From the NCBI GenBank assembly GCA_003161495.1, contig PMOP01000515.1:7118-21078 (forward strand): DNA of 13,961 bases, written 5' to 3'. The stretch comes from Acidobacteriota bacterium (GTDB lineage: Bacteria > Acidobacteriota > Terriglobia > Acidiferrales > UBA7541). The notes beneath the pieces are model-generated. The model worked only from the letters and a program-made list of their open reading frames with translations, had not been told where the DNA came from and searched no databases. Positions 561 to 13,961 of the stretch are shown here, in pieces. Made by a program: the position numbers and the translations under genes. The number at the start of each line of letters is the position of its first letter. The stretch's first letter is position 1.

Positions 561-641
561 TCCAGAGACAAACCAGGCTGCCTAGTTCGTGAGAAAGAGG
601 CTACGCACGGGCCTTCGCGGGGGTGTCACGAAGAAATCTGA

Positions 642-661: not shown

Positions 662-733
662 ATTTGGAGGAGGGCTTTACGGGATTCACCGGCGGGCGAA
701 CTCGTGCGGGTTTATGTTTTACGCCAAGAGGGA

Positions 734-1765
734 CTAGTCCCGGGTTTCGTACACCCACAATTCAGCGCCTCGATTGGCGCGTGCAGGAACCGCCAAGTAG
801 AAGCTGTTGTGCTTGCCAACTTGTCCAGTATACGCGCTGGTTCGCGCGCCAATTGCAGTGGGAATTTTTGCAATTCGTTGATAGCGATCCGGATCAATCT
901 GTTGGTATACGAAGATAAACCCCTCTCCACTTGTAACGTAAATTCTTTTGCGGTCTGCGTCATAGGACATATCGTCGGTATCGATCGCGCCCGGGAGGCT
1001 GGCAATCTGTTTCCCTGTATCCATGTCGAGAACCAGCAGTCGCGCGGGCTTGCGGGCCGCGACAAACAGGCGGCGATGAGCTTCATCGAGGGCCATCGGA
1101 AAATTTGTTCCGGCCTCCTCCAATTTCCAATTCTGGATTTTGCGCGTGTTTCGATCAATGACGGCAATCTGGCTGATGGAGGCGAGGTTAACGAATATCT
1201 TCGGACCCTTCTCTTCGAGTTGAAAAGATTCCGGATGGGCTGTAAGTTTAAATTCTTCCAGACGCTTGTTCGTCGTTGCATCAAATACTCCGATGGCGCT
1301 TTCGTCGCCATCGCCGTACGCGACGTAAACGCGTTTCGCGGCCGGGTCGTAACGGAGCTGGTCTGCATCATCGGAAAACTTCACGGTATCGATCAGCTTG
1401 TACGTATCCGCGTCAAAGATCTTGCAGGTACCGTCGCCCTCGCTGGAGACGACGATGCGATTTGATTCTGGAAGATACGCCACCATCTGGGGCTTGATAA
1501 ATCCTTCCTGAATGCTGTGAATTCGTTTGCCGCGCTGAGTATCCAGAACCTCCACGGAGTCATTGCCGTAAACGGAGGCGAAGACACGGCCATTCTGGTT
1601 GTCCACCGCCATGTGATCAAAGCGGCCTTCTACGCCTGGGATCGGGATAATCCGCACGAACACCAGCGGCGCGGTCTCATCGGCGGGCAAAGTTTCCTGC
1701 GCGAAACCGCAGATGGCGGACAGCATCACAAGCGCAAAGATCTGCAGGGTGCGGAATGGCGGCAT
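734..1765 (-). CDS. Exported YVTN-family beta-propeller protein
   Basis: This 343-residue protein starts with a classic signal peptide (hydrophobic core about residues 7-20, probable cleavage after CGFA or FAQ). The mature chain has repeated blade units of about 40-45 residues: NGRVFASVYGNDSVEVLD (about 58-75), NRIVVSSEGDGTCKIFD (102-118), KRVYVAYGDG...IGVFD (144-162), PKIFVNLASISQIAVID (188-204), RRLFVAARKPARLLVLD (231-247) and KRIYVTSGEGFIFVYQ (273-288). The pattern of a strand, a small turn and VLD/VFD followed by TGK- or TNK-like turns is diagnostic of YVTN/lactonase-like propellers, which are periplasmic or extracellular; individual functions are mostly unknown. GAGGAG lies just upstream of the ATG. 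The gene is divergent from the creatininase at 1902, and no link to nitrogen metabolism is evident. The stop codon lies inside a 12-bp perfect palindrome (730-741). Confidence 0.9.
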   Translation of the reverse strand: MPPFRTLQIFALVMLSAICGFAQETLPADETAPLVFVRIIPIPGVEGRFDHMAVDNQNGRVFASVYGNDSVEVLDTQRGKRIHSIQEGFIKPQMVAYLPESNRIVVSSEGDGTCKIFDADTYKLIDTVKFSDDADQLRYDPAAKRVYVAYGDGDESAIGVFDATTNKRLEEFKLTAHPESFQLEEKGPKIFVNLASISQIAVIDRNTRKIQNWKLEEAGTNFPMALDEAHRRLFVAARKPARLLVLDMDTGKQIASLPGAIDTDDMSYDADRKRIYVTSGEGFIFVYQQIDPDRYQRIAKIPTAIGARTSAYTGQVGKHNSFYLAVPARANRGAELWVYETRD

Positions 1766-1901
1766 GTCGGGCTCCTCGTAAACTAAGCGATTGAATCTAT
1801 CGCACTAAATTACGGAAAACTACAGCAAAGGTGTACGATTTTCCTTCCTGGTTCGGCAACTGCGAGATAGACACCAGCGTTTTCAGAAATAGGGGGATAG
1901 G

Positions 1902-2651
1902 GTGAGCGACTTCGAGAAATTGAACAGCGAGAATGTTCGGCAGGAGGCCGGGCGCGGCATCCTGTTGTTGCCGGTGGGCTCTGTCGAGCAGCATGGGCCG
2001 CACCTTCCTCTTACAGTTGATGTCGAGATACCCGTGCGCATCTCCGCGGCGATAGCGGAAAGGGTCAAAGGATTTGTGGCTCCATCGATTTTTTACGGGG
2101 CGCGGTCGCTGCCGCAGAGCGGGGGCGGGCCGGAGATTCCGGGAACAATTCGCGTTCGCGGCAGCGTATTAACGGATTATTTGAAGGACGTTATTTCCGG
2201 ATATGTTTCCATGGGATTTCGTTCTGTTGTCATTCTCAACGGGCATTATGAAAATGAAAGTTTTCTGTTTGAAGCTCTGGAACTGTGCAGGCAGGAGGGA
2301 AGGTTGGACGGCGCGCGGATTGTTGCGTTGAGTTGGTGGAGCCTTGTGCCGCAAGCGTTGCTCGACAAACTTTTCGGCGATCGATTTACGGGGTGGCATG
2401 CCGAACATGCCAGCGTTTGCGAAACTTCCTTGATGCTTCATCTCAGGCAGGATCTCGTGGGTGCGGAGCGGGTTGATAATGTCACGCCTCCACGCTCCGG
2501 GATTTATACGTTTCCCATCGAGGCGTCCAAAATTTCCAACCGCGGAGTTTTGGGGAACACTTCTTCTTCGAGCGCGGAGAATGGCCGCGAGCTCTTTGAG
2601 GAGATTTGCTCGCAACTGCTGTCAGTTATTCGCGAGCACATGCGGGTGTAA
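1902..2651 (+). CDS. crnA: Creatininase (creatinine amidohydrolase), metal-dependent
   Basis: The 249-residue product belongs to the creatininase family, which uses a two-metal site to hydrolyse a cyclic amide; the type enzyme interconverts creatinine and creatine. The ligands of the Pseudomonas enzyme (Glu34, His36, Asp45, His120, Glu122) map to E29, H31 (EQHG), D40, H115 and E117 (NGHYEN) with a constant offset of five. NGHYEN is characteristic of true creatininases, whereas most relatives have NxHGGN. The substrate-pocket residues Trp154, Trp174 and His178 correspond to W146, W165 and H169 (WWSLV and GWHAEH), followed by CETSLML. The SGGG..IPGT block is also retained. Translation starts at GTG 1902 behind AGGGGGATAG. 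The protein is cytoplasmic, with no signal peptide. It is convergent with, and 4 bases from, the ureohydrolase gene. The family is certain; creatinine as natural substrate is likely but unproven. Confidence 0.88.
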   Translation: MSDFEKLNSENVRQEAGRGILLLPVGSVEQHGPHLPLTVDVEIPVRISAAIAERVKGFVAPSIFYGARSLPQSGGGPEIPGTIRVRGSVLTDYLKDVISGYVSMGFRSVVILNGHYENESFLFEALELCRQEGRLDGARIVALSWWSLVPQALLDKLFGDRFTGWHAEHASVCETSLMLHLRQDLVGAERVDNVTPPRSGIYTFPIEASKISNRGVLGNTSSSSAENGRELFEEICSQLLSVIREHMRV

Positions 2652-2655
2652 GTAC

Positions 2656-3615
2656 TCACGATTTTCGTTTCGCCAAAGATTCCGCCAGCAGGCACAAAAT
2701 TTCAAAGGCAATATTTGCGGCGGCTAGCGCTGTTCCTCCCGAGGGATCGAAGGGAGGAGAAACTTCGACCACGTCCGCACCGACAAGGTTCAGATTTCGC
2801 AGGCCGCGCAGCAGGCGATTCACTTCGCGCGACGTGAGGCCGGCGAATTCAGGCGTGCCCGTGCCAGGGGCAAAAACCGGATCCAGGGCATCGATGTCAA
2901 AGCTAATATAAGTTGGCGCATCTCCAGCAACGCGGCGCGCTTCGCGGATTACGGCGTCGATTCCCATTTCCTCAAATTCTTCGATCGAAATAATACGAAT
3001 GCCCTGCTGCAGCGGCCAATCGCGCTCGTCCGCGGAATAGGTAGAGCCGCGAATTCCAATCTGCACCACTCGTTTGGGGTCGAGCAGTCCCTCCTCGATG
3101 GCTCTTCGGAAAGGAGTACCGTGCGTAAATTTCAAGCCGCCGAAGTAGGAGTCAACGGTATCGGAGTGCGCGTCAAAATGGATCATCCCCACGGGCCGCG
3201 CGGCCGCGACGGCGCGCAAAATTGGCAGCGAACTCAAGTGGTCGCCGCCAATGGCCAGAGGCACGGCTCCCGCTTCCACAATTTGGCTGAAAAATTTCCG
3301 AATGTCTTCCAGGGAACGATTCAAATCAATTGGGTTTACCGGGGCATCGCCGAGATCCGCGACGCGGCAAATTTCGTACGGGGAAATTTTGGTAACCGAA
3401 TGAACGCGCTTAATCAGGCTGGACATTTCGCGGACTTGCCGTGGGCCATGCCGAGGTCCCGGACGATTGGTCGTGCCGCCGTCCCAAGGAACGCCTACGA
3501 TGGCAATATCCACGTCGCGCGGATCCGTCAAAACCGGGAGCCGCATGAATGTCGAGTGTCCGGCAAAACGCGGAGTTACGCCGGAATCGATGGGCTCATA
3601 GCGCTGAGTTGTCAT
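2656..3615 (-). CDS. Ureohydrolase (agmatinase / guanidinobutyrase type), binuclear Mn
   Basis: This is a full-length 319-residue arginase-superfamily enzyme, which removes urea from a guanidino compound. The metal-binding motifs are complete: GGDH (H126), DAHSD (D148, H150, D152) and SFDIDALDP (D240, D242), followed by APGTGTPEFAG (249-259) and the C-terminal VEVSPPFDPSGGTALAAA. The overall layout and segments such as RRAIEEGLLDPKRVVQIGIR and DADVVEVSPP-type sequence resemble guanidinobutyrase/guanidinopropionase (GbuA/GpuA) and agmatinase more than arginase. One oddity is PEFAGLT where PEIGGLT or PEPGGLT is usual. It is the last gene of the minus-strand operon, 27 bases after the permease, with only a weak ribosome binding site, so translation may depend on the permease. 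Substrate candidates are guanidinobutyrate, guanidinopropionate, agmatine, guanidine or possibly creatine; the sequence cannot decide between them. Confidence 0.88.
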   Translation of the reverse strand: MTTQRYEPIDSGVTPRFAGHSTFMRLPVLTDPRDVDIAIVGVPWDGGTTNRPGPRHGPRQVREMSSLIKRVHSVTKISPYEICRVADLGDAPVNPIDLNRSLEDIRKFFSQIVEAGAVPLAIGGDHLSSLPILRAVAAARPVGMIHFDAHSDTVDSYFGGLKFTHGTPFRRAIEEGLLDPKRVVQIGIRGSTYSADERDWPLQQGIRIISIEEFEEMGIDAVIREARRVAGDAPTYISFDIDALDPVFAPGTGTPEFAGLTSREVNRLLRGLRNLNLVGADVVEVSPPFDPSGGTALAAANIAFEILCLLAESLAKRKS

Positions 3616-3642
3616 GATTGTTTGTCCCAGGGATTTTCATCA

Positions 3643-5058
3643 TTATTTGGCCAAAGTCCGTTCTGTTGGGTCACCTTCCAGCGCCGTTTTCTTTCTTTTT
3701 GTGCTCCAGAAAAACCACAACAAACCCAGGGCCAGATATCCCAGAAAAATCAATGGAAGTTTGCCATAAACGCCTTCCGGAACGGGATAAAGATTGCCGG
3801 CGAGCGCAAGCAGCATGACGAAGAACGTGAGCCAGGGAATGATCTGCGCTCCGGGACGAAAGGCGCCGTGATTGCGCAGGTAGCGAGGCAGCGCGAGGCA
3901 TGTCAAACCGTAAGCCACAATGAAACCGTACGTGCCGAGTGAACCCATCCAGCCATACACGTCGAGGCCGCGAGCGCCTCGCGCGGCGAGCACGGCCACC
4001 GGGAGGACCGCGGCGATTCCCGTCACAATCACGGCGCGTCCGGGAGTTTCGTTGCGCGCATGCGTGACGCGGAGCGAGCCGTGCGTTAATCCTCCATGCG
4101 CCATCAGGAGGAGAACTCGAGCGGCGGCGGTGATGCACGCGAGCGTGCAGGCAAACAGGCTCACCAGCGCTCCAATATCAATTAAAAGTCCGAGAGATCC
4201 CTCTCCGGCCACTCCGGCAAGCACACGCATCGGAGCCGGGCTCGTGCCCAGGTCCTGGCCGGCGACGCGAAAGCCGAGGACTTCGGAATACGCGCACAGT
4301 GTAAAAATCGCTCCCGACAAAAGAGCGCTCTGGATCACCGCGCGAGGAATTGTTTTCAGGGGATCGCGCGCCTCGGAGCCGAGCGTCGTGGCGCTTTCAA
4401 ATCCGACAAAACTGAAGAGGGCCAGAACAAGACCGAGGCGCAGGCCGCTGCCGGTCATGCCGCGAAGTTGTAGTTGTTCCCAATCCAGGTGGTGGCGAAA
4501 TCGCACGAGAACCAGCGCGACAACGATGAGGATCAGTGAAACAGATACCGCCTCGATCCACAGCATGAGACGCGCGGAAACTTTTACGTCACGCCAGGCA
4601 ATCCACACGGAAATCGCCGTGGCCAGCAGGGACAAAAAGACAGCGGAAACGATGTGGCTGCCCGAATCCAGAATCAAAAGATTTCCATAGTGATAAAAGC
4701 CGCCGATCACGCTCGATCCCGTGGCCACGTAGGCGAGCAGCAAGCTCCAGGCGACGATCGCGCCTGCCGCCGGCGGAAGAATTGGCGACGCATAGGAATA
4801 CAGCGAGCCCGGCGAAGCCGAGTAACGCGCGAATTTACTGATGCAGAGCGCCACCAGGAAAATTGCGGCCGTGGCAAGAACGTAAGCGAGCCACGTGCCG
4901 TTGCCGGCCAGCGCGCAAACGAGCGGGATCGTGGCAACAGGCGTGGCGGTCGGAGAAATCGTCGAGACGGATTGCGCTAGAGTCTCCACGGGGGAGAGCG
5001 CCGCGTGCCGCAATCCATATCCCGTTTTCTCCAAATGCGCTTCGGGCACGCCGGTCAT
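3643..5058 (-). CDS. APC-family amino acid / polyamine permease
   Basis: The 471-residue protein has about a dozen hydrophobic segments spread over its length, from about residue 38 to 460, and the N-terminal block SPTATPVATIPL followed by a long hydrophobic helix, which fits the amino acid-polyamine-organocation (APC, COG0531) fold. Members move amino acids, polyamines and related amines across the inner membrane, usually with H+ or by exchange. It lies between the binding-protein gene (18-base gap) and the ureohydrolase (27-base gap), so it probably imports the guanidino/amine substrate, or exports or exchanges a product, of that enzyme. The ATG at 5058 has only a distant GGGGAGA upstream. 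The C-terminus is basic and ends in the cytoplasm. The substrate is not deducible. Confidence 0.87.
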   Translation of the reverse strand: MTGVPEAHLEKTGYGLRHAALSPVETLAQSVSTISPTATPVATIPLVCALAGNGTWLAYVLATAAIFLVALCISKFARYSASPGSLYSYASPILPPAAGAIVAWSLLLAYVATGSSVIGGFYHYGNLLILDSGSHIVSAVFLSLLATAISVWIAWRDVKVSARLMLWIEAVSVSLILIVVALVLVRFRHHLDWEQLQLRGMTGSGLRLGLVLALFSFVGFESATTLGSEARDPLKTIPRAVIQSALLSGAIFTLCAYSEVLGFRVAGQDLGTSPAPMRVLAGVAGEGSLGLLIDIGALVSLFACTLACITAAARVLLLMAHGGLTHGSLRVTHARNETPGRAVIVTGIAAVLPVAVLAARGARGLDVYGWMGSLGTYGFIVAYGLTCLALPRYLRNHGAFRPGAQIIPWLTFFVMLLALAGNLYPVPEGVYGKLPLIFLGYLALGLLWFFWSTKRKKTALEGDPTERTLAK

Positions 5059-5076
5059 ATAAAGTCCGTGTCTCCC

Positions 5077-6072
5077 CTAGTTTGTTTGCAGAAATTGCAG
5101 AGTGTAAGCCACCGCCGGATCAAATGGTTTCTCGATGACTTTCAAGTCGACGAGCTGTTCGTACATGGTAGTCCACCGCTTCGGATCCATTTGGCCGATC
5201 TGCGCGCCGCTGGCATTGTCCCCGGTAATGAAATGGCCGTCCCGCAGTTGTTGCCAGCTAAATTGCATCCATTCCGGATTGAGCGCGGGATTGAGTTTGG
5301 CAATCATGGCATGGGCCGGGCCCGGTTCATTCAGATAATCTTTCCAGCCTTTCAGCGATGCGCGAACAAATTTGGCGACGACATCGGGATGTTGCTGAAC
5401 GAAATCCCGCGTCGTATACATCACGCGGTAAGGACTGTATCCGGCATCGCTGACCAGCAGAACGCGCGTCTCAATCCCAGCCTGGTGCGCGAAAAACGGT
5501 TCCGACGTCGCAAACGCCTGCTGAATATACTGCGGATCGGCCACAAAGTTAGCCACATTCATCATTGCCGGAACGACTTTAATGTTATTCAGTTGAAAGC
5601 GTTTCGCGATGAACTCAAACCACGTGGATTCGCCGACCTTGATGGCGACGGAATGCCCGTTGAGGTCGGAGAAGGTATGGATGGGCGAATCTTTTCTCAC
5701 CATGATGCCTTGCGGATCGTGCTGCATCGTGGCGGCCACTGCGACCAACGATTGCCCTTCGGCATTCGATTCCAGAACTTTGTCCGAAGATCCCATGCCA
5801 AACTGCGCGCTTCCGGACGAAACTTGTTTTTCCACCGTGATGTACGGGCCGCCTGGAAGAATCGTTACGTCCAGGCCTTCGTCTTTGTAGAATCCCTTGG
5901 CCAGAGCGGTATAGAAACCTCCGTGCTCGGGCTGGGGATACCAGTCCGCCTGGAAAACAATTTTTGTCAGTCCGCTATTCTCGGCAGGGCGGCGGCATCC
6001 CAGCACGAAGATGCTGACGAAGATGCCGACGAAGATCAGTGCACACCAGATGCGGAAAAAACGCTTGGCCAT
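5077..6072 (-). CDS. ABC transporter solute-binding lipoprotein, NMT1/THI5 (NitT/TauT) type
   Basis: A 331-residue exported protein with a lipoprotein signal: a basic N-terminus (AKRFFR), a hydrophobic segment containing three IFV repeats, and a VLGC lipobox with Cys26 as the lipidation site. The mature part has the NMT1/THI5-like plan: IVFQADWYPQPEHGGFYTALAKGFYKDEGLDV near the start, then VEKQVSSGSAQFGMGSSD and DLNGHSVAIKVG. These proteins capture sulfonates, pyrimidine or riboflavin precursors and other small ring compounds for NitT/TauT importers. No ATPase or permease lies in its own operon; the matching pair is at 10648-12209 in the divergent operon. The ATG at 6072 is preferred; a GTG two codons upstream (6078) is equally possible, and neither has a strong ribosome binding site. 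It is the first gene of the leftward operon. Confidence 0.88.
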   Translation of the reverse strand: MAKRFFRIWCALIFVGIFVSIFVLGCRRPAENSGLTKIVFQADWYPQPEHGGFYTALAKGFYKDEGLDVTILPGGPYITVEKQVSSGSAQFGMGSSDKVLESNAEGQSLVAVAATMQHDPQGIMVRKDSPIHTFSDLNGHSVAIKVGESTWFEFIAKRFQLNNIKVVPAMMNVANFVADPQYIQQAFATSEPFFAHQAGIETRVLLVSDAGYSPYRVMYTTRDFVQQHPDVVAKFVRASLKGWKDYLNEPGPAHAMIAKLNPALNPEWMQFSWQQLRDGHFITGDNASGAQIGQMDPKRWTTMYEQLVDLKVIEKPFDPAVAYTLQFLQTN

Positions 6073-6169
6073 GTTCACGAATCCATTCCAGAGTCTGCGG
6101 GCGAGAATAACACGCGGGGTTTCGCGGAATGCGGTCTAATCGTTCCGATGCAAAAATTGAATAAAGGCG

Positions 6170-6197
6170 TTGCGGCGGGCCCGGCTCGCAATATGTT
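6170..6197 (+). promoter_or_regulatory. Possible sigma70-like promoter of the rightward operon
   Basis: TTGCGG at 6170-6175 and TATGTT at 6192-6197 are separated by 16 bases in the only non-coding gap between the two divergent operons. Match to the consensus is modest (about 3 of 6 and 4 of 6). If used, transcription would start at about 6204, giving a nearly leaderless message for the ATG at 6208 or a leader of about 40 bases for the ATG at 6247. I could not find a convincing counterpart for the leftward operon. Confidence 0.22.
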
Positions 6198-6207
6198 AAA
6201 TTGCGGC

Positions 6208-6750
6208 ATGGCATTGTCTGCTAGCGCAAGGCCGCGCGCTGCCGCGATGGACGAAGGACGCATGCGGGAGATTTACGAATTCACCGCGCGATCCCTGAAG
6301 ACCGCGCGCCCCGTGCCGTTCGGCGCGCTGATTGTCGACACACGCACGGGCGAACGCCTGATGCGCGCGACCAATGCGGTCCAGCGCGAAAACGATCCGA
6401 GCGCTCATGCCGAGACGCGCACCGTCCGGCTGGCCTGCAAGAAACTAAAACGCCCCTCTCTTGCCGGGTTTACGATGTACTCCACGTGCGAGCCGTGCGC
6501 GATGTGCATGGCGAATGCGCTGTGGGCCAGGCTCGATCGCGTGGTCTACGGGGCGACGATTGAAGACGCCAACCGCTTTTGCCTGCAAATTCATATTGGG
6601 GCTAAAGAAGTAGCGCGGCGCTCGGACATGCATTGCATCGTGGAGGGGCCGGTGTTGCGCGATCTCTGCAACACGCTTTTTACGCATCCGAACATGCAGA
6701 AGGCTTTTCGGGCCTGGAGCACGAGCAAAAGCAAATCCGCAAAATCGTGA
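6208..6750 (+). CDS. Nucleobase/nucleoside deaminase, guanine-deaminase (GuaD/TadA) type
   Basis: This is a zinc-dependent deaminase of the cytidine-deaminase superfamily that hydrolyses an amino group on a ring. The zinc and catalytic motifs are complete: HAE (H67, E69) and PCAMC (C97, C100) in TCEPCAMC, followed by ANALWARLDRVVYGA. The order FGALIVD, then NDPSAHAE, then YSTCEPC, together with a C-terminal extension ending KAFRAW, resembles Bacillus-type guanine deaminase more than tRNA deaminase TadA. Start choice is uncertain: ATG codons lie in frame at 6148, 6193, 6208 and 6247, none with a clear Shine-Dalgarno. The conserved domain begins near the 6247 ATG, so the true start may be there. 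It is first in the rightward operon, 21 bases before the FAD enzyme. Guanine is possible, but the neighbours suggest another aminated ring compound. Confidence 0.83.
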   Translation: MALSASARPRAAAMDEGRMREIYEFTARSLKTARPVPFGALIVDTRTGERLMRATNAVQRENDPSAHAETRTVRLACKKLKRPSLAGFTMYSTCEPCAMCMANALWARLDRVVYGATIEDANRFCLQIHIGAKEVARRSDMHCIVEGPVLRDLCNTLFTHPNMQKAFRAWSTSKSKSAKS

Positions 6751-6771
6751 TTTTGACAAGAGCCGATATCC

Positions 6772-8148
6772 ATGGACCCGAAACATATCGCTGAAATTCG
6801 ATTGATCATTGGGGATTCTTCGCGCGTAATTGTGAATCCGCAAATCGTCGAGCAGCTCTCGCGCGATTTCTACTGGTATTCGCCTGTGCTTCGCAAGCAA
6901 CTCGATGGAAAGCTGGGCGACGTCGTCGTTCAACCGCTCAGCGCGGCCGAAATTCAAAAACTGTTGCGCTACGGCTACGCGAATAATCTTCCCGTGACCG
7001 CCCGCGGCGCAGGCACGGGTAATTACGGGCAGGCGGTTCCGCTCGAAGGCGGCGTTGTTCTCGATCTCAGCCGCATGGATCGCATCGAGGAAATTCAACC
7101 GGAAGGCGTAGCCGTTTGCCAGCCTGGCGTTCGACTCGGGGAACTCGAGAATGAAGCGCGCAAGGCGGGGTGGGAACTACGGTGCTATCCCTCGACGATC
7201 ATCAAGGCGTCGATCGGCGGATTTCTCGGCGGCGGTTCCGGGGGAATCGGCACGGTTGCGCACGGATACCTTCGCGATTTTCAAACGGTGCGGGCCATCG
7301 AAGTGGTCACCATGGAGCCGGAACCGCGCGTAATTCTTCATGAAGGAGAGGCGGTTCACGAAATTCTGCACGCCTGGGGCACCAACGGCATCATCACCCG
7401 TATTTGGCTCGCGCTCACTCCGGCCGTGGAATGGTCTCAGTGCGTTGCGGCGTTTGACTCGTTTGCCGCGGCATTCGATTTCGGCGAAAAAATTGCGACC
7501 GGGGCTCAATGGATCAAGCGGCTCGTCACTGTTTTCGAGTGGCCGATTCCTTCTTTTTTCACGCCGATCCGGAAATATGCTCCAGAAGGAAAAACGCTGA
7601 TTTTTTTTATGATCGCTTCCAGCCAGCTCGCCGAATTGGAAGCGGCTGCCCAAGAAGGCGGAGGAACAATTACGCACAGCGCGGTTTATCCCGGCCTCAA
7701 CGCCAGGCCGCTGCTTTCCGATTACACCTGGAATCACACGACGCTTTGGGCGATGAGATCGGACGAAGCCTATACCTACTTGCAATGCGGCTTCAACCCC
7801 GATACTGTGCGCGAACAGATGCGTCAATTGCGCGAGCGGTTCGGGCAGGAATTTTTATTTCACATGGAGTTCATGAAGAACGGAGAGGGCCGCGTGATTC
7901 CCGGCGCGATTCCCGTCGTGTACTACACAACAGAGGAACGGTTGAACGAAATGATCGATTTCTGCAGGGAGATTGGAGTGTTCGTGGCCAATCCCCACGT
8001 GAACAATGTGGAAGGAGGCGGGCGTTATCGCGCGGACAACGTCCAGTTGCTCGCCAAACAGCGCTACGACCCCAAAGGATTGCTCAATCCGGGTAAGATG
8101 ATCACGTTCCATTCGGAATCCGCGACGGCCGGAGCAAAAACGAAATGA
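6772..8148 (+). CDS. FAD-binding oxidoreductase, GlcD/VAO (PCMH-type) family
   Basis: A 458-residue flavoenzyme. The N-terminal FAD-binding PCMH domain is recognisable from VVVQPLSAAEIQKLLRYG, PVTARGAGTGNYGQ (about 74-87), GGVVLDLSRMDRI and SIGGFLGGGSGGIGT (about 149-163), the pyrophosphate and isoalloxazine-contacting segments of the vanillyl-alcohol oxidase/GlcD family. The C-terminus carries the family's YDPKGLLNPGKM. Family members oxidise hydroxy acids, amines, alcohols or ring carbons and pass electrons to oxygen or a carrier. Its place between a ring deaminase and a creatininase-fold amidohydrolase suggests it oxidises a ring intermediate, but the substrate is unknown. The start ATG at 6772 has only a weak upstream AAGAG. 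Its stop overlaps the next start by 4 bases (ATGA). No signal peptide; cytoplasmic. Confidence 0.87.
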   Translation: MDPKHIAEIRLIIGDSSRVIVNPQIVEQLSRDFYWYSPVLRKQLDGKLGDVVVQPLSAAEIQKLLRYGYANNLPVTARGAGTGNYGQAVPLEGGVVLDLSRMDRIEEIQPEGVAVCQPGVRLGELENEARKAGWELRCYPSTIIKASIGGFLGGGSGGIGTVAHGYLRDFQTVRAIEVVTMEPEPRVILHEGEAVHEILHAWGTNGIITRIWLALTPAVEWSQCVAAFDSFAAAFDFGEKIATGAQWIKRLVTVFEWPIPSFFTPIRKYAPEGKTLIFFMIASSQLAELEAAAQEGGGTITHSAVYPGLNARPLLSDYTWNHTTLWAMRSDEAYTYLQCGFNPDTVREQMRQLRERFGQEFLFHMEFMKNGEGRVIPGAIPVVYYTTEERLNEMIDFCREIGVFVANPHVNNVEGGGRYRADNVQLLAKQRYDPKGLLNPGKMITFHSESATAGAKTK

Positions 8149-8939
8149 AAACCTGGATCCCGGACGCGCGAAACTTCGCCTATTTGAATTGGAAGCAAGT
8201 AGACGCGCTTCCTCGCGAGTCCACGCTGCTGGTGCTTCCCACGGCGGCCATTGAGCAGCATGGACACCATCTGCCTTTGGCAACCGACACGTTGATCAAC
8301 AATCTGCTTCTGGGACATGCGCTCTCTAAATTGCCTGCCGATTTACCCGTGTACGCGCTGCCGGCCGTCCATTACGGCAAGAGCAACGAGCACATCGGTT
8401 TTCCCGGAACGCTTTCGTTCAGCGCCACGACATTCATGGCCGTGCTGCGCGATCTCGGTTCCAGCTTGTCAAAAGCCGGGTTCCGAAAGCTCGTTCTCTA
8501 CAACACCCACGGCGGAAATACTTCGTTGATCGACGTCATGTCCCGCGACCTGCGCGCGGAATTCGGCTTGAGAACGTTTGCGCTGCATGGCTCCGGCGGA
8601 ATTTCGTTTGAAGGCCTCGATCCTCAGGAACGCGCGTATGGATTTCACGCGGGCGAAGTCGAAACTTCGTTCCTATTGTCAAGCGTGCCGGAGTTAGTGG
8701 ATCGCTCCGCATATACGCACAATTACATCGCGGACATTTCCAAGCCGGGGATGCTGCTGCCGGAAAATGGGCCAGCCACATTTGCGTGGCTTACGCGTGA
8801 CATCGCGTCCAGTGGCGTGATGGGCGATCCGCGGCCAGCCACTTCAGAAAAAGGCGCGCGCTGGATCGAACAAGCGGCCACGCGATTGGCCGCTGCGCTC
8901 CAGGAAATGGCACGCTATCCGGATCAGCGCACGCCATGA
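8145..8939 (+). CDS. Creatininase-family amidohydrolase, HGGN type (second paralogue)
   Basis: A 264-residue creatininase-fold enzyme distinct from the one at 1902. The metal ligands are present: E37 and H39 in EQHGHHLPL, D48, H122 in NTHGGN, and the FHAGEVETS block (168-175). Where true creatininase has NGHYEN and paired tryptophans, this protein has NTHGGN and HAGExET. That combination is typical of the broader subfamily, which includes formamidopyrimidine-type deformylases and the mycofactocin protease MftE. It most likely hydrolyses an amide, perhaps in a ring, but not necessarily creatinine. Starts at the ATG inside ATGA at 8145-8148, so it is translationally coupled to the FAD enzyme, and overlaps the next gene the same way at 8936. 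No radical-SAM or mycofactocin genes are nearby, which argues against MftE. Confidence 0.87.
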   Translation: MKTWIPDARNFAYLNWKQVDALPRESTLLVLPTAAIEQHGHHLPLATDTLINNLLLGHALSKLPADLPVYALPAVHYGKSNEHIGFPGTLSFSATTFMAVLRDLGSSLSKAGFRKLVLYNTHGGNTSLIDVMSRDLRAEFGLRTFALHGSGGISFEGLDPQERAYGFHAGEVETSFLLSSVPELVDRSAYTHNYIADISKPGMLLPENGPATFAWLTRDIASSGVMGDPRPATSEKGARWIEQAATRLAAALQEMARYPDQRTP

Positions 8940-10651
8940 GCAAATCCGATTGGATCGATTGCGGCGGAGGCGTGCGCCTCGAACGTGGCGTCCGCGCCCG
9001 GATGCGCGATGGCGTGGAACTGGTTTCCGACCACTACTATCCTCCACAGCCCGGTCCGCAACCGACGCTCCTGATGCGTCAGCCTTATGGACGCGACATT
9101 GCATCCACGGTTGTCTATGCCCATCCAACATGGTTTGCGCGTCACGGATACAACGTCGTCATTCAAGACGTTCGCGGCCGCGGCGATTCCGAAGGCGAGT
9201 TTTATCCTTTTCGCAATGAGGGCGCCGATGGCGCTGACACGATCGCGTGGCTGCGCGCGCGGGCCGAATCGAATGGCCGCGTTGGCATGTACGGTTTCTC
9301 TTATCAGGGGATGACGCAACTTTTGGCCGCAGCCGAACAGCCCGAGGGCTTGCAGTGCATTTCGCCTGGGATGGCCGCATGCGATTTGTATCGCGGTTGG
9401 TTCTATCACCAGGGAGCGCTACAACTCGCGTCGACGCTCGGCTGGGGATTGCAGTTGTTGAAAGCGGACGCGCGACGGAAACAGTTGCGCGATGCAAGCG
9501 ACAAGCTCGAACAAGCCTGGGCGCAACTCTCGATGCAAACAAGCTTGCTGCCTAATCGGTCGCACCCTGCCTTGCACGGCGAAGGTCTCCCCTCTTACGT
9601 GTTCGACTGGCTGGATCACGACGGTCCCGGAGAATATTGGACGGCGCTCGACGTGAGCCAGCGCCTCGATAAAATCCGAATTCCCGCGCTGCACATCTCC
9701 GGCTGGTATGACATGTTTCTTCGCGGCAGCGTCGATGGCTTTCTCGCTCTGCGTAAATTTGCGGGAAGCGAATTTGCGCGCGAGAACCAATACCTACTTG
9801 CGGGGCCCTGGACGCACATTCCGTGGGGAGATCGAATTGGCGCTGCGGACTTCGGTCCTGAGGCGCTCATCGACACGGACACAATTCTATTGCGCTGGTT
9901 CGATCACTGGTTGAAAGATTCCGGCGCGTTTGCGGGAAAAGCGCATGTGTGCCACTTTGTTCTCGGAGAAAATTTCTGGCGAGAATCGGAAACTTTTCCC
10001 GCTGAGGCAAAATACGCCCTCTTCCTTCACAGCGAAGGCAGAGCGAATTCGCGCAAAGGAAATGGAACGCTTTCAGGAGCAAACCCCGGCGCCGGCGAGC
10101 CTTGCGACATTTTCGTCCACGATCCCGAAGTGCCCGTCATTGCGCCCGGCGGCCCGACTGCCGCGAGCGGTTCATTCGATCAAGCGGCATTGGAACTCGG
10201 AAATAACGTCCTGGTTTATTCGACGGAGCCGCTGGAAATTCCGCTTTGGGTTTTTGGCATTCCACGCGTGGTTCTTTATTGCGCCACATCGCTGGCGACT
10301 GCTGACTTCACCGCAAAGCTTGTGCGCGCGAAGCCCAATGGCGCGGCGGAATTTATTTGCATGGGAGTAGCGCGGTCGAACTACCTCTTCGCATCGAATG
10401 GCTACGCCGCGGACAAAATTCACCACTGGGACTTTTCTCTCGAACCCACATCGTGCCTTTTTAGCAGGGGAGACCGCATTCGTCTTGAAATCGCCAGCAG
10501 CGCGTTTCCACTCTTTGACCGAAATCCCGGCAGCGATGTGCCTTCCAGCCGGGCGACTTCCTGGGATTGGCGGCGGTCGACGCAATTCGTGTTCCACAAT
10601 CACGATTGCCCTTCGGCGCTTTATTTGCCCGCCTCCGAGAGGCAGGAATGA
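8936..10651 (+). CDS. CocE/S15-family alpha/beta hydrolase
   Basis: A 571-residue member of the X-Pro dipeptidyl-peptidase (S15)/CocE family, about the length of cocaine esterase. The catalytic triad can be placed: nucleophile S122 in MYGFSYQGM, D259 in SGWYDMFLRG, and H294 in AGPWTHIPWG, in the family's usual order. QDVRGRGDSEG (about 77-87), which precedes the nucleophile, is also a family hallmark. After about residue 340 follows the C-terminal jelly-roll domain (PLWVFGIPRVVLYC... and RGDRIRLEIASSAFPLFDRN). There is no signal peptide, so it acts in the cytoplasm. Members hydrolyse esters, acyl-amino acids or peptides. Embedded by ATGA overlaps between an amidohydrolase and an ABC ATPase, it probably acts on an imported ester or amide. 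The substrate is unknown. Confidence 0.88.
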   Translation: MSKSDWIDCGGGVRLERGVRARMRDGVELVSDHYYPPQPGPQPTLLMRQPYGRDIASTVVYAHPTWFARHGYNVVIQDVRGRGDSEGEFYPFRNEGADGADTIAWLRARAESNGRVGMYGFSYQGMTQLLAAAEQPEGLQCISPGMAACDLYRGWFYHQGALQLASTLGWGLQLLKADARRKQLRDASDKLEQAWAQLSMQTSLLPNRSHPALHGEGLPSYVFDWLDHDGPGEYWTALDVSQRLDKIRIPALHISGWYDMFLRGSVDGFLALRKFAGSEFARENQYLLAGPWTHIPWGDRIGAADFGPEALIDTDTILLRWFDHWLKDSGAFAGKAHVCHFVLGENFWRESETFPAEAKYALFLHSEGRANSRKGNGTLSGANPGAGEPCDIFVHDPEVPVIAPGGPTAASGSFDQAALELGNNVLVYSTEPLEIPLWVFGIPRVVLYCATSLATADFTAKLVRAKPNGAAEFICMGVARSNYLFASNGYAADKIHHWDFSLEPTSCLFSRGDRIRLEIASSAFPLFDRNPGSDVPSSRATSWDWRRSTQFVFHNHDCPSALYLPASERQE

Positions 10652-11421
10652 ACGCCGACGCTTGCGTGCCGGAAATTGAGATCGCGGGCGTTACGAAGCA
10701 GTATGGCAATGCGCAAACGGTTTTGGAATCGATTGACTTGATTGTCGCCAAGCAGGAATTCCTCGGCATCATTGGCCCCTCGGGTTGCGGCAAATCCACA
10801 ATTCTCAAACTGATTGCCGGTTTAGCCATTCCGAACAGTGGGACGATTCGCGTGGATGGGATGACGCCGCAAAATGCCAGGGAAACGATTTCGTTCGTTT
10901 TTCAGGACGCGACGCTGCTTCCGTGGCGCACGGTGAAAGAAAATATCGGCTTGGGCCTCGAACTCGAGCGCATTCCGAAGAACCGGCGTGAAAATGAAAT
11001 TGCCGCTCTGCTCGAACTGGTAGGGCTCAAAAATGTAGCCAGGGCCTATCCGCGCGAATTGTCGGGCGGGATGAAGATGCGAGTTTCGATTGCTCGTGCG
11101 CTGGCGACGAACCCGCGGCTGATGCTTCTCGACGAACCGTTCGCTGCGCTCGACGAAATGTCTCGCGACCACTTGAACGAAGAAATCCTGCGCCTGCGCG
11201 CGGAACAAAATTGGACGGCAGTCTTCGTGACGCACTCTGTTTCCGAGGCGGTATTTCTTTCCGACCGGATTGTCGTGTTGGCGCCGAATCCTGGGCGAAT
11301 CCACGCGGAGTTTCGAGTGGAGTTGCCGGCGCCGCGCACCTCTGCGATCCGCAATTCCCGGGAGTTCGATGCGATTGTCGCGCGCGTGTCGCACACGTTA
11401 CGGGAGACGCTGCGGCCATGA
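10648..11421 (+). CDS. ABC transporter ATPase, NitT/TauT (SsuB/TauB-like) type
   Basis: A 257-residue nucleotide-binding subunit with every expected motif: Walker A GPSGCGKST (43-51), Q-loop Q86 in FQDATLLPWRTV, signature LSGGM (138-142), Walker B LMLLDE (158-163), D-loop ALDEMSR and H-loop H196 in VTHS. LLPWRTV and ALDEMSR are typical of ATPases serving nitrate, sulfonate, taurine and pyrimidine-precursor importers. The ATG at 10648 is chosen because it forms ATGA with the hydrolase stop; a longer frame opening at 10567 would overlap 85 bases of the hydrolase and adds no conserved sequence. It energises uptake with the permease at 11418 and, by inference, the lipoprotein at 5077-6072. Confidence 0.92.
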   Translation: MNADACVPEIEIAGVTKQYGNAQTVLESIDLIVAKQEFLGIIGPSGCGKSTILKLIAGLAIPNSGTIRVDGMTPQNARETISFVFQDATLLPWRTVKENIGLGLELERIPKNRRENEIAALLELVGLKNVARAYPRELSGGMKMRVSIARALATNPRLMLLDEPFAALDEMSRDHLNEEILRLRAEQNWTAVFVTHSVSEAVFLSDRIVVLAPNPGRIHAEFRVELPAPRTSAIRNSREFDAIVARVSHTLRETLRP

Positions 11422-12209
11422 AGCGGCAAGCCATCACCGCTCTCAACGCTCTCGCGGTTTTCGCAGCGCTGGTTGCGCTCTGGCAGATTGTTTTGTGGGT
11501 ATTTCACGTGCCGCCCTTCATGCTTCCTTCGCCATGGGCCGTGGCACGGGCCGTGGGCGCGCGATTTCCCTTATTGCTGAACGCACTGGCCATCACGGCG
11601 GAAGAATCCGCCGGCGGCCTCGGGGCCAGCATCGTTTTCGGCGTGCTGGTCGCGCTGCTTTTTGCTCAATCGCGCTGGGTGCGAAAGATGCTTTACCCTT
11701 ACACTCTGCTTCTGCAAACCGTGCCTATCATCGCGATCGCGCCGTTAATCCTGATGTGGATGGGAGCGGGCATTTTCGCGGTGACGTTCATTGCATTTAT
11801 TATTTCGCTCGCGCCCATTATCGCCAACACTACGCAGGGCCTCATCAGCGTCGATGAAAATCTGGTGCATCTTTTTCTGATGCACAATGCCTCGCGCGCT
11901 CAATTGCTCTTCAAGCTGCGGCTGCCGAATGCCGTCCCGGACCTTTTTGTCGGAATACGAATCGCCAGCGGAATTGCCGTGATCGGCGCGATTACCGGAG
12001 AGCTCTTCGCCGGCTCGAGCCGCGTCGGAGAAGGCGGGCTTGGATATTCGATCCTGTACGCTTCCTCTCAGTTGCAGACGGACTATTTATTTGCCCTGGT
12101 GCTGGCCGCGACCGTGTTGGGATTCGGTTTCCTGTTTCTGGTAATGTTTCTGGAATGGTATTTTCTGCATCGCTGGCACGAATCGGCTCGCGCGCCCGAA
12201 GCGGAATGA
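11418..12209 (+). CDS. ABC transporter permease, NitT/TauT (SsuC/TauC-like) type
   Basis: A 263-residue inner-membrane subunit with about six hydrophobic segments, beginning NALAVFAALVALWQIVLWV. PPFMLPSPWAVARA after the first helix is a hallmark of this permease class. The cytoplasmic EAA-type loop that docks on the ATPase is visible as HNASRAQLLFKLRLPNAVPDLFVGIRI (about residues 154-180). The ATG at 11418 overlaps the ATPase stop as ATGA. A frame opening at 11211 is only an extension inside the ATPase gene. It is the last tightly coupled gene; an untranslated purine-rich stretch follows. Together with the ATPase and the divergently encoded binding lipoprotein it makes a complete importer. 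Confidence 0.92.
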   Translation: MKRQAITALNALAVFAALVALWQIVLWVFHVPPFMLPSPWAVARAVGARFPLLLNALAITAEESAGGLGASIVFGVLVALLFAQSRWVRKMLYPYTLLLQTVPIIAIAPLILMWMGAGIFAVTFIAFIISLAPIIANTTQGLISVDENLVHLFLMHNASRAQLLFKLRLPNAVPDLFVGIRIASGIAVIGAITGELFAGSSRVGEGGLGYSILYASSQLQTDYLFALVLAATVLGFGFLFLVMFLEWYFLHRWHESARAPEAE

Positions 12210-12290
12210 AGAAACAAAATGGCGAAGCGGAATGGGAAAGCGGGAGGGCAAAGTGGGATGGAAAAGCGAAATAATAAACCGGAATGACTG
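12197..12290 (+). repeat. Purine-rich tract with short degenerate repeats after the permease
   Basis: From the last codons of the permease to about 12290 the plus strand is almost all purines. CGAAGCGGAATG occurs twice (12197-12208 and 12223-12234), and GGAATG or GGGATGG variants recur up to 12286. The first copy overlaps the permease stop codon. It encodes nothing visible. It may be a decayed tandem repeat or simply a compositional oddity. Confidence 0.45.
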
Positions 12291-12337
12291 CGTGAATTCA
12301 ATGCGCACCGCGCGATTCTTGAATTGCAAATCTTTGG

Positions 12338-12367
12338 ATTTTAAATTTCAAATTTGAGATTTAAAAT
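12338..12367. repeat. AT-rich 30-bp near-perfect palindrome
   Basis: ATTTTAAATTTCAAA (12338-12352) is followed directly by TTTGAGATTTAAAAT, its reverse complement apart from one T/G pair. It lies 27 bases upstream of the DUF3891 start, in an otherwise GC-rich region. It could act as a cruciform, a weak transcription stop for the preceding operon, or an operator for the next gene. Similar AAATTT-rich dyads are, from memory, scattered in intergenic regions of soil bacteria. No GC stem or T-run typical of a strong terminator is present. Confidence 0.5.
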
Positions 12368-12394
12368 TTGTGAAAGTTTGCGAGGTGAATCAAC

Positions 12395-13219
12395 ATGCTG
12401 CGGCTCGAAACAGAAACCGGATGGTGGCTCGTAAAGCATCCCGATCATGCGCGTCTCGCGGGCGCTTTCGCCGAGCGCTGGGGCAACGATCTTTTCTTGC
12501 CGCCCGAGCCGCGGGAACACGTTTTGCGCGGCATCGCCCGCCACGATGACGGCTGGGCCGCCAGGGACGCCGTTCCGCAAATCACACGGCAAGGGAAACC
12601 CAGCGCTTTCTCGACCGAACTCGTGGGCAAATATTCGGGCTTCGAGGAGATTGACCTCGTGGATTACCTCGCGGTGCGCGACCGAGCCGTGCGCGAGATA
12701 GCCGCGGAAGATCCGTACGCAGCGCTCCTCATTTCCATGCACACATACAGCCTGCTGCACGATCACGCCGACCGCTCCACTATCGCGCCTGCGCAATTGC
12801 CGCTGCTCGATCAATTCCTGGAACGGCAGAAAGCGCTGCAAAATTCCTTGCGCGAGCAAATTGCGGCGAATGCGAATTTGAAACGGGAGCATAAGACCGA
12901 AAGTGCAATTTTGGATCACTTTCGTTTATTGCAAGCCAACGACTATCTTTCTCTGCTCACTTGCGTGGATTTTCAGAAGCCTGTAAACCTGCTGCACGCA
13001 CTGCCGGCGCGGGACGGCAAACGCATTCCCGTCCAGGCGCGCGCGATTGCAACCCGCCACTTCGTTTTGGAACCTTATCCGTTCGCTGAGCCGTCGCTTA
13101 CCTTTCAATTTCCCGCGCGGCATGCCAAAGGAAAATTGTTTTCTGAGGCGAAAGAATTGCAGGCCGCTTTCGCAGCCGCGCCCGTCGAAATGTTGTCGGT
13201 CACCGTCAGCGCGAAGTAA
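12395..13219 (+). CDS. DUF3891 family protein
   Basis: A 274-residue soluble protein that I recognise as DUF3891. Visible conserved features are KHPDHARLAG (14-23), an HDDGW motif (50-54) after LRGIARH, and AALLISMHTYSLL (about 109-121). Together they suggest a helical fold with several conserved His and Asp residues, perhaps metal-binding and HD-like, but no activity is established that I know of. A clear GAGGTGA ribosome binding site lies about six bases before the ATG. It has the same orientation as the ABC/hydrolase operon but is separated by 185 bases containing repeats, so it is probably expressed on its own or weakly by read-through. It is followed directly by a long inverted repeat. 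Confidence 0.82.
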   Translation: MLRLETETGWWLVKHPDHARLAGAFAERWGNDLFLPPEPREHVLRGIARHDDGWAARDAVPQITRQGKPSAFSTELVGKYSGFEEIDLVDYLAVRDRAVREIAAEDPYAALLISMHTYSLLHDHADRSTIAPAQLPLLDQFLERQKALQNSLREQIAANANLKREHKTESAILDHFRLLQANDYLSLLTCVDFQKPVNLLHALPARDGKRIPVQARAIATRHFVLEPYPFAEPSLTFQFPARHAKGKLFSEAKELQAAFAAAPVEMLSVTVSAK

Positions 13220-13220
13220 C

Positions 13221-13292
13221 GTGGCGCAGGCTTCAGCCTGTGGGTTTTTGCCCTTGCTTGCGCTAAACCCCACAGGCTGAAGCCTGCGCCAC
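13221..13292. repeat. Long inverted repeat (24-bp perfect arms) between convergent genes, possible bidirectional terminator
   Basis: The arms at 13221-13244 and 13269-13292 are perfect reverse complements over 24 bases, separated by a 24-base loop, and complementarity extends a few bases further with a bulge. Each arm contains the sub-palindrome CAGGCTTCAGCCTG. The element starts two bases after the DUF3891 stop and lies between it and the convergent HpxZ-like gene. I recognise this GTGGCGCAGGCTTCAGCCTG-type sequence as a dispersed intergenic repeat in Acidobacteriota, like REP elements of other bacteria. The predicted RNA hairpin is very stable, so it may stop transcription from both sides, though there is no strong T-run. 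Confidence 0.8.
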
Positions 13293-13349
13293 TAAAACCG
13301 CTTGCCATCCATATTTGAATTTTCTTATTGGTGCCAATAGCATTTCTGA

Positions 13350-13730
13350 TCAAGGAAGAACCGAGACATGCGCGGAAACGATGCGCCAGCCATCGGGAAA
13401 CCGCACCCACACCTGGCTTTGCCGCCCTGAAATAAGTTTGCCATTTATGCTGCGCTCGAATTCAAGCGTGATGCTGCCGAAATCGCGCCCGAATGTGACG
13501 ATGTCGAGCCGCCTCACTTTTCTCGCCAGATTGGCGGGCGAGCGGCCTTTGCGGAAGGCGTCGATCTCCTCGATGCCGTACAAATTCTCGGTGATTCCGA
13601 AGCGCATTGCGTACGGCGACGCCCAGAACATGCGCGTTAGCGTTTCCGCATCGTTGGTGACTAGCGCGGCTTCATATTTCGGATAGAGCGCCAGCAGTTC
13701 CGCGACGATTTCGGGATCATTGATCTTCAT
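13350..13730 (-). CDS. hpxZ: HpxZ/AtzH-like protein (DUF3225, NTF2-like fold)
   Basis: A 126-residue protein matching the DUF3225/AtzH-like family over its whole length: YEAALVTNDAETLTRMFW (about 19-36), then ENLYGIEEIDAFRKGR, then a C-terminal RQSQVWVRFPDGWRIVSAHVS. In Klebsiella, hpxZ lies in the oxalurate branch of purine catabolism. AtzH, in the cyanuric acid operon, has been proposed to convert 1,3-dicarboxyurea to allophanate. The protein is small, soluble and cytoplasmic. It lies 52 bases downstream of the acetamidase/formamidase end, same strand, so the two probably share a message. The start at 13730 is the first ATG after an in-frame stop and lies in a tandem duplication of the first codons. 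The usual partner amidase (HpxW/AtzE) is not in view. Confidence 0.83.
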   Translation of the reverse strand: MKINDPEIVAELLALYPKYEAALVTNDAETLTRMFWASPYAMRFGITENLYGIEEIDAFRKGRSPANLARKVRRLDIVTFGRDFGSITLEFERSINGKLISGRQSQVWVRFPDGWRIVSAHVSVLP

Positions 13731-13740
13731 GGATCTTCAT
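13721..13740 (-). repeat. 10-bp tandem duplication over the hpxZ-like start codon
   Basis: On the minus strand, ATGAAGATCC is followed immediately by ATGAAGATCA, giving two ATG AAG ATC starts ten bases apart and so in different frames. Only the downstream one (13730) opens the conserved protein; the upstream one soon meets a stop. This looks like a recent slippage duplication that may change the efficiency of initiation. Confidence 0.6.
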
Positions 13741-13782
13741 GTCGATTGCTTTTTAGTATCACCTCAGCCTGCGCTGCGAAAA

Positions 13783-13961
13783 TCAAAAAAGTTTTCTCGC
13801 GGGAAGGATTTGTTTCGAGATCGCCGCGGATACTGTGAATATCGGCTCATTCACAACCTGGCTAAGCCGCAGATTCATCACCACGCTGCAAAGCAGGTAA
13901 GCGTGAACCGCGCTGAAGCCCCAGCGATCTGCGAGCAAATCGATCATGCGCGAAGTCGCCG
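13783..13961 (-). CDS. Acetamidase/formamidase family protein, C-terminal end (runs off the right edge)
   Basis: The last 58 residues of a minus-strand protein are visible, ending at the TGA at 13785-13783. The end contains MIDLLADRWGFSAVHAYLLCSVVMNLRLSQVVNEP, the C-terminal signature of acetamidase/formamidase (FmdA/AmdA): a helix, then AYLLCS, then NLRLSQVVN and a short tail. Such enzymes release ammonia from formamide, acetamide or similar small amides. The first two bases at the window edge are an incomplete codon. It is upstream of, and probably cotranscribed with, the hpxZ-like gene. Because most of the protein is outside the window, the exact subfamily cannot be judged. Confidence 0.75.
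   Translation of the reverse strand, partial: ATSRMIDLLADRWGFSAVHAYLLCSVVMNLRLSQVVNEPIFTVSAAISKQILPARKLF

Follow-up and report, generated by a model that had tools for sequence, protein, structure and literature searches.

The stretch of DNA analysed here (the window: 13,961 nucleotides of contig PMOP01000515.1 from an Acidobacteriota bacterium, positions 7,118 to 21,078 of the forward strand) holds two units lying side by side, and the larger of them, module A, proved to be a real and broadly conserved gene cluster of soil and lake bacteria that probably imports a nitrogen heterocycle and takes its ring apart. Module A comprises the gene of a substrate-binding protein (5077-6078) and the genes between 6208 and 13961; the smaller unit, module B, is formed by a creatininase gene, crt1, and the gene of a ureohydrolase resembling GpuA. 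Tentatively, and with somewhat less than even confidence, we read module A as a system for the uptake and degradation of a 2-amino-4-oxo-pyrimidine heterocycle, most likely a pterin, with module B as a separate unit. A preliminary description, made from the letters of the window, had taken 1902-13961 as a single island that might break down a nitrogen-rich cyclic compound. The proposed activity is in agreement with the conserved uptake and C-N hydrolysis cluster, but the single island had to be given up, since crt1 and the ureohydrolase gene were found in the flanks of none of 80 module A loci. The window runs to the end of its contig, of whose 21,078 bases it takes up the last 13,961; the source assembly is a draft of 544 contigs and is 72.6% complete.

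The conservation of module A was followed through its flavin adenine dinucleotide (FAD)-dependent enzyme. A profile built from 20 aligned FAD proteins was used to scan a one-genome-per-species collection, in which 220 of 240 matching stretches encode a relative of the enzyme, and the best 80 of these 220 were kept as loci (57 from Acidobacteriota, 21 from Verrucomicrobiota and 2 others, as grouped by record labels). Flanks were searched up to 10 kb per side, and loci cut by contig or flank ends were scored as misses. The six genes from the deaminase to the permease of the ATP-binding cassette (ABC) importer keep their order and strand in all 68 loci that have all six, a conservation far beyond chance. 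Taken singly, the deaminase and the creatininase-fold protein, crt2, are each present in 79 of the 80 loci, the CocE hydrolase in 75, the ABC ATPase in 70, the ABC permease in 69 and the DUF3891 protein in 57. The deaminases of these loci are 51–86% identical to that of the window, and the crt2 proteins 64–86%. Where at least 6.4 kb separates the start of the FAD gene from the end of the locus, all five partners of this gene are found in 59 of 61 loci; one exception (L033) starts just ahead of the FAD gene and the other is considered below. At the level of whole genomes the FAD enzyme is rare: it was detected (E-value up to 1e-60) in 6 of 297 phylum genomes and in 7 of the 95 genomes of the order, counting the own genome. 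The preliminary description had also proposed a search for co-occurrence of the plus-strand operon (6208-12209) with the divergent minus-strand operon (2656-6072), and the outcome was divided: the binding protein accompanies the operon in 71/80 loci (in three of them at merely 24–27% identity), whereas the creatininase and the ureohydrolase do so in none, and the permease of the APC superfamily lies further out from module A in relatives.

Gene families were assigned with Pfam and NCBIfam models, and solved relatives are matches in the PDB; every family named in the preliminary description could be recovered in this way, the acetamidase/formamidase end by tblastn. The importer is indeed split over two divergent operons, with its NMT1/THI5-like binding protein on the minus strand (5077-6078; PF09084, 141 bits) and its ATPase (10648-11421; PF00005) and permease (11418-12209; PF00528) on the plus strand. 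Among solved structures the binding protein comes closest to 4nmy (78 bits), a solute-binding protein that is uncharacterised, followed by THI5 (51 bits) and a ThiY-type pyrimidine-binding protein (3ix1, 39 bits). The best NCBIfam families of the ATPase (SaoA, taurine, PhnT2 and nitrate type) all stay below their cut-offs. The plus-strand series begins with a CDA-fold deaminase (6208-6750; PF00383), whose start was set at 6208 within an open reading frame (ORF) that stays open further upstream. Its zinc motif (HAE and PCxMC) is nearly invariant among relatives, and its best solved matches are near-tied between deoxycytidine deaminase (5jfy) and guanosine/guanine deaminases (7dbf, 1wkq, 1tiy), with TadA close behind. 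The FAD-dependent oxidoreductase or oxygenase of the FAD_binding_4 type (6772-8148, + strand; PF01565) matches PDB entries 6v42/6v43 with an E-value of 3e-109 over residues 15–447. These entries carry the label 'FAD/FMN-containing dehydrogenase' in the search, and 6v42 is about 67% identical to Rhizobium FAD proteins and 91% identical to one from Hoeflea. The following protein, crt2 (8145-8939, + strand; PF02633), an amide hydrolase, was filed only as creatininase-fold, since it falls below the cut-off of the creatininase model TIGR04448 (89.3 bits against 235). It is followed by a CocE/NonD serine hydrolase of the peptidase S15 type (8936-10651, + strand; PF02129 and PF08530; TIGR00976, 400 bits against a cut-off of 66). 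With the ATG starts selected here for the genes from FAD to permease, the two ABC genes among them, successive genes overlap by 4 bp, as in a co-translated operon. Beyond the permease gene lies that of a DUF3891 protein (12395-13219, + strand; PF13030, 144 bits), which was absent from the earlier gene list.

The outer part of module A is encoded on the minus strand and holds an AtzH-like/HpxZ (DUF3225) protein (13350-13730; PF11533, 164 bits) and the C-terminal end of an acetamidase/formamidase resembling AmdA/FmdA (13786-13961), which is clipped by the end of the contig. The latter is genuine, with 58 residues (13959-13786) at 70.7% identity to a full-length relative (L042, 10374-11306), which itself reaches 118 bits with the FmdA model NF045496, whose cut-off is 500. 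The DUF3225 protein passes the HpxZ model NF033625 (153.2 bits, cut-off 135), and in the alignment all nine residues of the AtzH pocket are identical (Tyr22, Arg46, Arg63, Arg66, Arg73, Phe94, Arg96, Gln106 and Gln108, as given in PMC6219798). Among 33 aligned relatives, the catalytic Tyr is kept in 29 of the 30 that cover it, and each other pocket residue in all, or all but one, of those covering it. In addition, 53/80 loci have an amidase-signature gene, which mostly separates the binding-protein gene from that of the deaminase and belongs to the AtzE/HpxY superfamily, although in one relative its scores with AtzE models (169–179 bits) stay below the cut-offs of 426–461. The statement that the gene set has no match to the Hpx system was therefore too strong. 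In the outer block AtzH/HpxZ and acetamidase/formamidase genes appear in 32 loci each and a Rid gene in 22, many loci ending before the block. A large receptor of about 1354 residues was seen in 22 loci, and in Verrucomicrobiota one of about 810 residues in 14; both were taken, by eye and without a model, as Oar/TonB type.

The APC-superfamily permease of the window (3643-5058, − strand; PF00324/PF13520) has matches in 18 of the 95 order genomes, namely in all seven carriers of the FAD gene (the own genome included) and in 11 of the 88 others. In the carriers with a long enough contig (G386, G385, G325 and G368) its gene lies on the same contig beyond the AtzH-AmdA-Rid block, and in G380 and G383 module A sits on short contigs and the APC permease elsewhere. 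A small membrane protein, DUF2165, is encoded in 25 of the 80 loci and adjoins the APC permease in L158-L160, an assignment based on a model in L160 (e.g. 11330-11821) and made by eye in the others.

The ring targeted by these proteins is suggested to be of the 2-amino-4-oxo type because of the deaminase matches (to which 39% identity over 94 residues with a GuaD-like gene of the relative L160 is added), the low-scoring THI5/ThiY likeness of the binding protein, the AtzH pocket together with the HpxZ model, and BrbF, a creatininase-family enzyme that deformylates a 2-amino-5-formylamino-pyrimidinone (PMC9478397) and whose activity implies that the creatininase fold may handle ring-opened pterin or purine skeletons. 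A pterin, free or derived from folate, would be the most likely substrate, and a modified purine a less likely one. The solved FAD relative 6v43 is presumably a flavin oxygenase of folate catabolism, and the 'endoribonuclease' gene downstream of the Variovorax pterin deaminase gene probably encodes a Rid protein. It is because of these two points that a pterin is preferred, the Variovorax gene being described in PMC9513972.

In this scheme, whose substrate, order of steps and products we infer, the compound would be imported by the NMT1-type binding protein and the ABC importer, with the TonB/Oar-type receptor in relatives, and the CDA-fold deaminase would release ammonia from the amino group on the ring. 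Oxidation of the ring by the FAD enzyme would come next, and crt2 would open a ring amide or take off a formyl group, the resulting amides being split by the CocE hydrolase, the amidase-signature enzyme and the acetamidase/formamidase. A Rid protein would clear enamine or imine intermediates, and the AtzH/HpxZ protein might decarboxylate an intermediate of the N-carboxy-urea type, leaving urea or ammonia and C2 acids.

A cousin of the cluster occurs on proteobacterial plasmids, where relatives of the FAD enzyme were found in 137 records, at 35–43% identity among the matches listed. All seven plasmid neighbourhoods opened (L139-L145) have an annotated Rid gene and the three components of an ABC importer (binding protein, ATPase, permease). 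A creatininase-family gene is present in six, the exception being Klebsiella (L142), whose gene table is gappy there, and a 'cytosine deaminase'/amidohydrolase gene and an NAD(P)H-dependent oxidoreductase gene in five (L139, L140, L143, L144 and L145). The window crt2 is 32.5–37.8% identical to the creatininase-family proteins of L139, L141, L144 and L145. In L139, plasmid pR132501 of R. leguminosarum bv. trifolii WSM1325, the relatives of the FAD enzyme (43.6%), crt2 (34.9%), binding protein (33.9%), ATPase (45.3%) and permease (37.9%) stand together with a Rid gene and a deaminase. However, this deaminase is of the amidohydrolase type (PRK07583) and that of the window has the CDA fold; L139 further encodes a regulator of the LysR type and a protein resembling flavin reductases, and no CocE, DUF3891, AtzH or AmdA is annotated in its stretch. 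In its widest form, the proposal would be that of a complete new route of pterin-ring mineralisation (from folate and biopterin debris) in Acidobacteriota and Verrucomicrobiota, with a CDA-fold deaminase resembling guanine deaminases where the known pterin deaminases are of another type, and with an AtzH/HpxZ urea end; Rhizobiaceae and Rhodobacterales would carry a plasmid-borne sister version that uses a non-homologous deaminase; this full form we regard as rather unlikely.

Several points weigh against a pterin, and some of them point to another ring. The top solved match of the deaminase is, by a hair, deoxycytidine deaminase, and its best NCBIfam match is TadA, far below the cut-off. The deaminase of the Rhizobium cluster matches the 'cytosine deaminase' model (702 bits, cut-off 403), and among solved structures it is related to cytosine deaminases and N-isopropylammelide amidohydrolases. 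The folate link of 6v43 is uncertain: this entry was named in none of the papers searched, and neither folate, pterin nor Hoeflea was present in the accessible part of a review on flavin N5 chemistry (PMC7662398). Family membership of the deaminase, the amidase and CocE is not enough to define a substrate, and no folate, guanidine or other riboswitch was detected in the window (at E-values up to 1) or in seven other loci (at the gathering threshold); a single palindrome in the window scored far below the gathering score of microRNA families. Within the conserved set, the Granulicella rosea locus (L061) has room for CocE and both ABC genes and lacks them in its flanks, and the amidase, AmdA, Rid or AtzH gene is missing from the searched flanks of many loci. 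Module A could serve a different heterocycle, such as a pyrimidine (the thiamine pyrimidine or isocytosine), an s-triazine or another plant or microbial N-heterocyclic product. The deaminase match, the low-scoring THI5/ThiY likeness of binding protein and importer, the complete AtzH pocket and the cytosine-deaminase-type, N-isopropylammelide-hydrolase-related enzyme of the proteobacterial cluster speak for this possibility, but the RutA-type, AtzD and AtzF families were not found among the window genes scanned, and a triazine herbicide in particular would fit poorly with a conservation across soil and lake bacteria that favours a common natural substrate. We consider it an unlikely alternative to the pterin.

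A purine is suggested by other features. Module A might degrade a modified purine, or a purine or hydantoin product of the oxalurate type, and so extend the Hpx and allantoin routes, as the guanosine/guanine deaminases among the best solved relatives of the deaminase and the score of the DUF3225 protein above the HpxZ cut-off could indicate. In one Acidobacteriota relative (L160) a likely purine-breakdown block (293-7945) adjoins module A, with XDH-type (xanthine dehydrogenase) subunits, an OHCU decarboxylase domain, an allantoinase, a GuaD-like gene and a purine permease. Its allantoinase and OHCU decarboxylase score above the cut-offs of their models and the XDH subunits stay below theirs; the GuaD-like gene and the permease were assigned by similarity and Pfam. 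XDH-type genes 48–75% identical to those of L160 were found in the flanks of 4/80 loci (L036, L040, L043 and L059). But purine genes adjoin few loci only, and in L160 module A is unlikely to be a guanine route because the block there, through its GuaD-like gene, XDH-type subunits and allantoinase, probably already covers guanine. Furthermore, HpxW was not seen and HpxX was not looked for, and the purine routes described so far are not known to employ FAD and creatininase-fold enzymes of this kind, which also counts against this alternative; we hold it to be improbable to a similar degree as the other heterocycles. As a separate observation, L160 carries an XdhB-type FAD domain fused to the OHCU decarboxylase domain in a single protein.

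Module B presents a different picture. The crt1 protein (1902-2651, + strand; PF02633) meets the creatininase model TIGR04448 (251.3 bits, cut-off 235) and can be aligned over its full length, the GHYEN and GW..EH stretches among it, with creatininase structures 1q3k/1j2t of the PDB. The ureohydrolase (2656-3615, − strand; PF00491) has its best solved match in 3-guanidinopropionase (3nip, 451 bits), ahead of guanidinobutyrase (293), proclavaminate amidinohydrolase (260) and agmatinase (212). It keeps the specificity residue Tyr157, as aligned to GpuA, which is reported to take part in substrate recognition (roles of Y157 and M161; PMC10833137). This Tyr is found in both same-genus relatives and in all four plasmid relatives examined, and in just one of seven other relatives from the order or phylum (L135-L138, L175-L177). 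The protein also passes the NCBIfam agmatinase model (200 bits, cut-off 174), and the models thus leave its substrate unfixed. Creatine, as an isomer of 3-guanidinopropionate, was considered a candidate substrate; a human relative, AGMAT, hydrolyses neither creatine nor guanidinoacetate (PMC9772407). The best reading is that the creatininase would open the ring of a cyclic guanidino compound, and that the ureohydrolase would release urea from the guanidino acid so formed.

Among the 95 order genomes crt1 was detected in three, all of the genus of the window, and ureohydrolase matches in 20: the own genome, two at 86–87% identity (the same three genomes) and 17 at 46–55%. In the two other genomes crt1 and the ureohydrolase gene are convergent neighbours on contigs without module A. 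In the phylum draw, crt1 was found in 2/297 genomes and the ureohydrolase in 4/297 (E-value up to 1e-100), none with the FAD gene besides the own genome. On a plasmid of Rhizobium sp. CIAT894 a creatininase gene (38.6%) and a ureohydrolase gene (57.7%) abut in tandem, an arrangement that speaks for the two being linked in function. GpuA relatives on three plasmids (L171-L173) and in three phylum genomes (L175-L177) have no adjoining creatininase, and creatininase relatives in L170 (by annotation) and L174 no adjoining ureohydrolase; the pair is therefore recurrent, not obligate. In L170 (6914-8329, Agrobacterium) an annotated nucleoside 2-deoxyribosyltransferase is encoded next to the creatininase relative, and in L174 (8273-9619, another phylum genome) the creatininase relative adjoins a 173-residue ORF that looks similar by eye. 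A search for the ureohydrolase in viruses gave two pattern matches, none of them confirmed.

Whether the two modules work together was weighed against their independence. The whole stretch could encode one guanidino or creatinine-like pathway that uses both creatininase-fold enzymes, the ureohydrolase and the transporters: crt1 passes the creatininase model, the ureohydrolase is GpuA-like with its Tyr157, and the run from the binding-protein gene through the APC permease gene to the ureohydrolase gene has gaps of 18 and 27 bp, an operon-like spacing in the window. The FAD gene, crt1 and a close ureohydrolase also occur together in the same three of six genus genomes (own, G385 and G386) and are all missing from the other three, two of which are 71% and 89% complete. 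This co-occurrence weighs against full independence, and a working link between the modules is possible. A single pathway is nevertheless quite improbable given the absence of crt1 and gpuA from the flanks of module A, which ruled out module B as part of the conserved cluster, their separation from module A, on different contigs, in the two same-genus genomes, and the lack of crt1 in the FAD carriers outside the genus (four others of the order and five others of the phylum draw). In the phylum draw crt1 occurs in one further genome, which lacks the FAD gene, and the inactivity of AGMAT on creatine and guanidinoacetate points the same way. The contact between the modules might also be artificial, the window being a mis-joined contig of a draft metagenome bin. 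The fragmented assembly and the fact that the contact of crt1, gpuA, APC permease and binding-protein genes was seen in no other genome examined agree with a mis-join, but the G+C content per kb stays at 0.54–0.61 across 2-7 kb with no clear step and gene spacings of 18 and 27 bp are unlike a random join, which makes this very improbable.

A REP-like dispersed palindromic repeat was found at 13217-13298, between the DUF3891 and AtzH-like genes; its 19-base half site (at most one mismatch) occurs 78 times forward and 91 times in reverse in the source draft genome, with totals of 42 and 94 in two same-genus genomes, and the backward-read control gave no occurrence in any of the three. Upstream of the island, a secreted ORF spans the window start (1-558, − strand) and two proteins, at 734-1765 (− strand) and at 5206-6420 (+ strand) of L003, gave weak beta-propeller matches. 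A defence system was considered and rejected, since PADLOC returned no match for five of the six proteins submitted, and the match that it gave for the deaminase (18 bits) was trivial.

No description of the gene set of module A was found in the literature searched, in line with the earlier statement that no described pathway has this set; as most subscription journals lay outside the search, this absence is weak. Nearly every cell makes pterins and folates. Were the pterin reading true, the return of their rings to the nitrogen cycle would become addressable, the degradation mechanisms being described as not fully understood in the introduction of PMC9513972. As the cluster is common to soil and lake phyla with cultured members, the proposal is directly testable. 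The gene context would also give a substrate class to several orphan families, among them DUF3891, to creatininase-fold proteins that are not creatininases and to AtzH/HpxZ proteins outside triazine and purine routes, and the recurrence of a creatininase-ureohydrolase pair is put on record.

In function, module A may be compared with the pterin deaminases Arad3529 of Agrobacterium and PDA of Variovorax sp. F1, which belong to the amidohydrolase superfamily. Both would share with module A the deamination of a 2-amino-4-oxo ring, and the Variovorax deaminase gene is accompanied by its downstream 'endoribonuclease' gene (PMC9513972). They differ in fold from the CDA-type (PF00383) deaminase of the window, although function could coincide, and the Variovorax route proposed in the accessible part of that paper stops at deaminated products and mentions no creatininase, oxidoreductase or gene cluster. 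Catabolism of riboflavin and lumichrome, which also involves pyrimidine-ring hydrolysis, was rejected as a model because its P450, xanthine-oxidase-type and Rieske enzymes are absent here, and no word in 'creatinin-' occurs in the accessible part of its description (PMC12746152). The accessible parts of a study on oxalurate and biuret use by nitrifiers (PMC12625717) and of the review on flavin N5 chemistry (PMC7662398) likewise contain nothing on this gene set. With the creatinine pathway and GpuA of Pseudomonas aeruginosa, module B shares a creatininase by model and a ureohydrolase with Tyr157; unlike them, it pairs both enzymes, with no creatinase-like gene among the window genes scanned. 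The oxalurate branch of the Hpx system (HpxW-X-Y-Z) resembles module A in the HpxZ/AtzH protein with its complete pocket and in the amidase-signature enzyme of the relatives, but no HpxW was seen, small HpxX-type ORFs were not searched for and the one AtzE/HpxY-superfamily amidase scored stays below the AtzE cut-offs. The cyanuric acid operon (AtzD-G-E-H-F) has the AtzH pocket in common with the window, though not AtzD or AtzF among the genes scanned, and from both systems the remaining genes of module A differ. The Rut pathway is unlike the window in its RutA-type monooxygenase, where the window has a FAD_binding_4 enzyme with no second flavin enzyme among the genes scanned, and in RutB and RutG, which the window does not hold; it is alike in combining a flavin enzyme, a Rid protein (in the relatives of module A) and hydrolases for ring opening.

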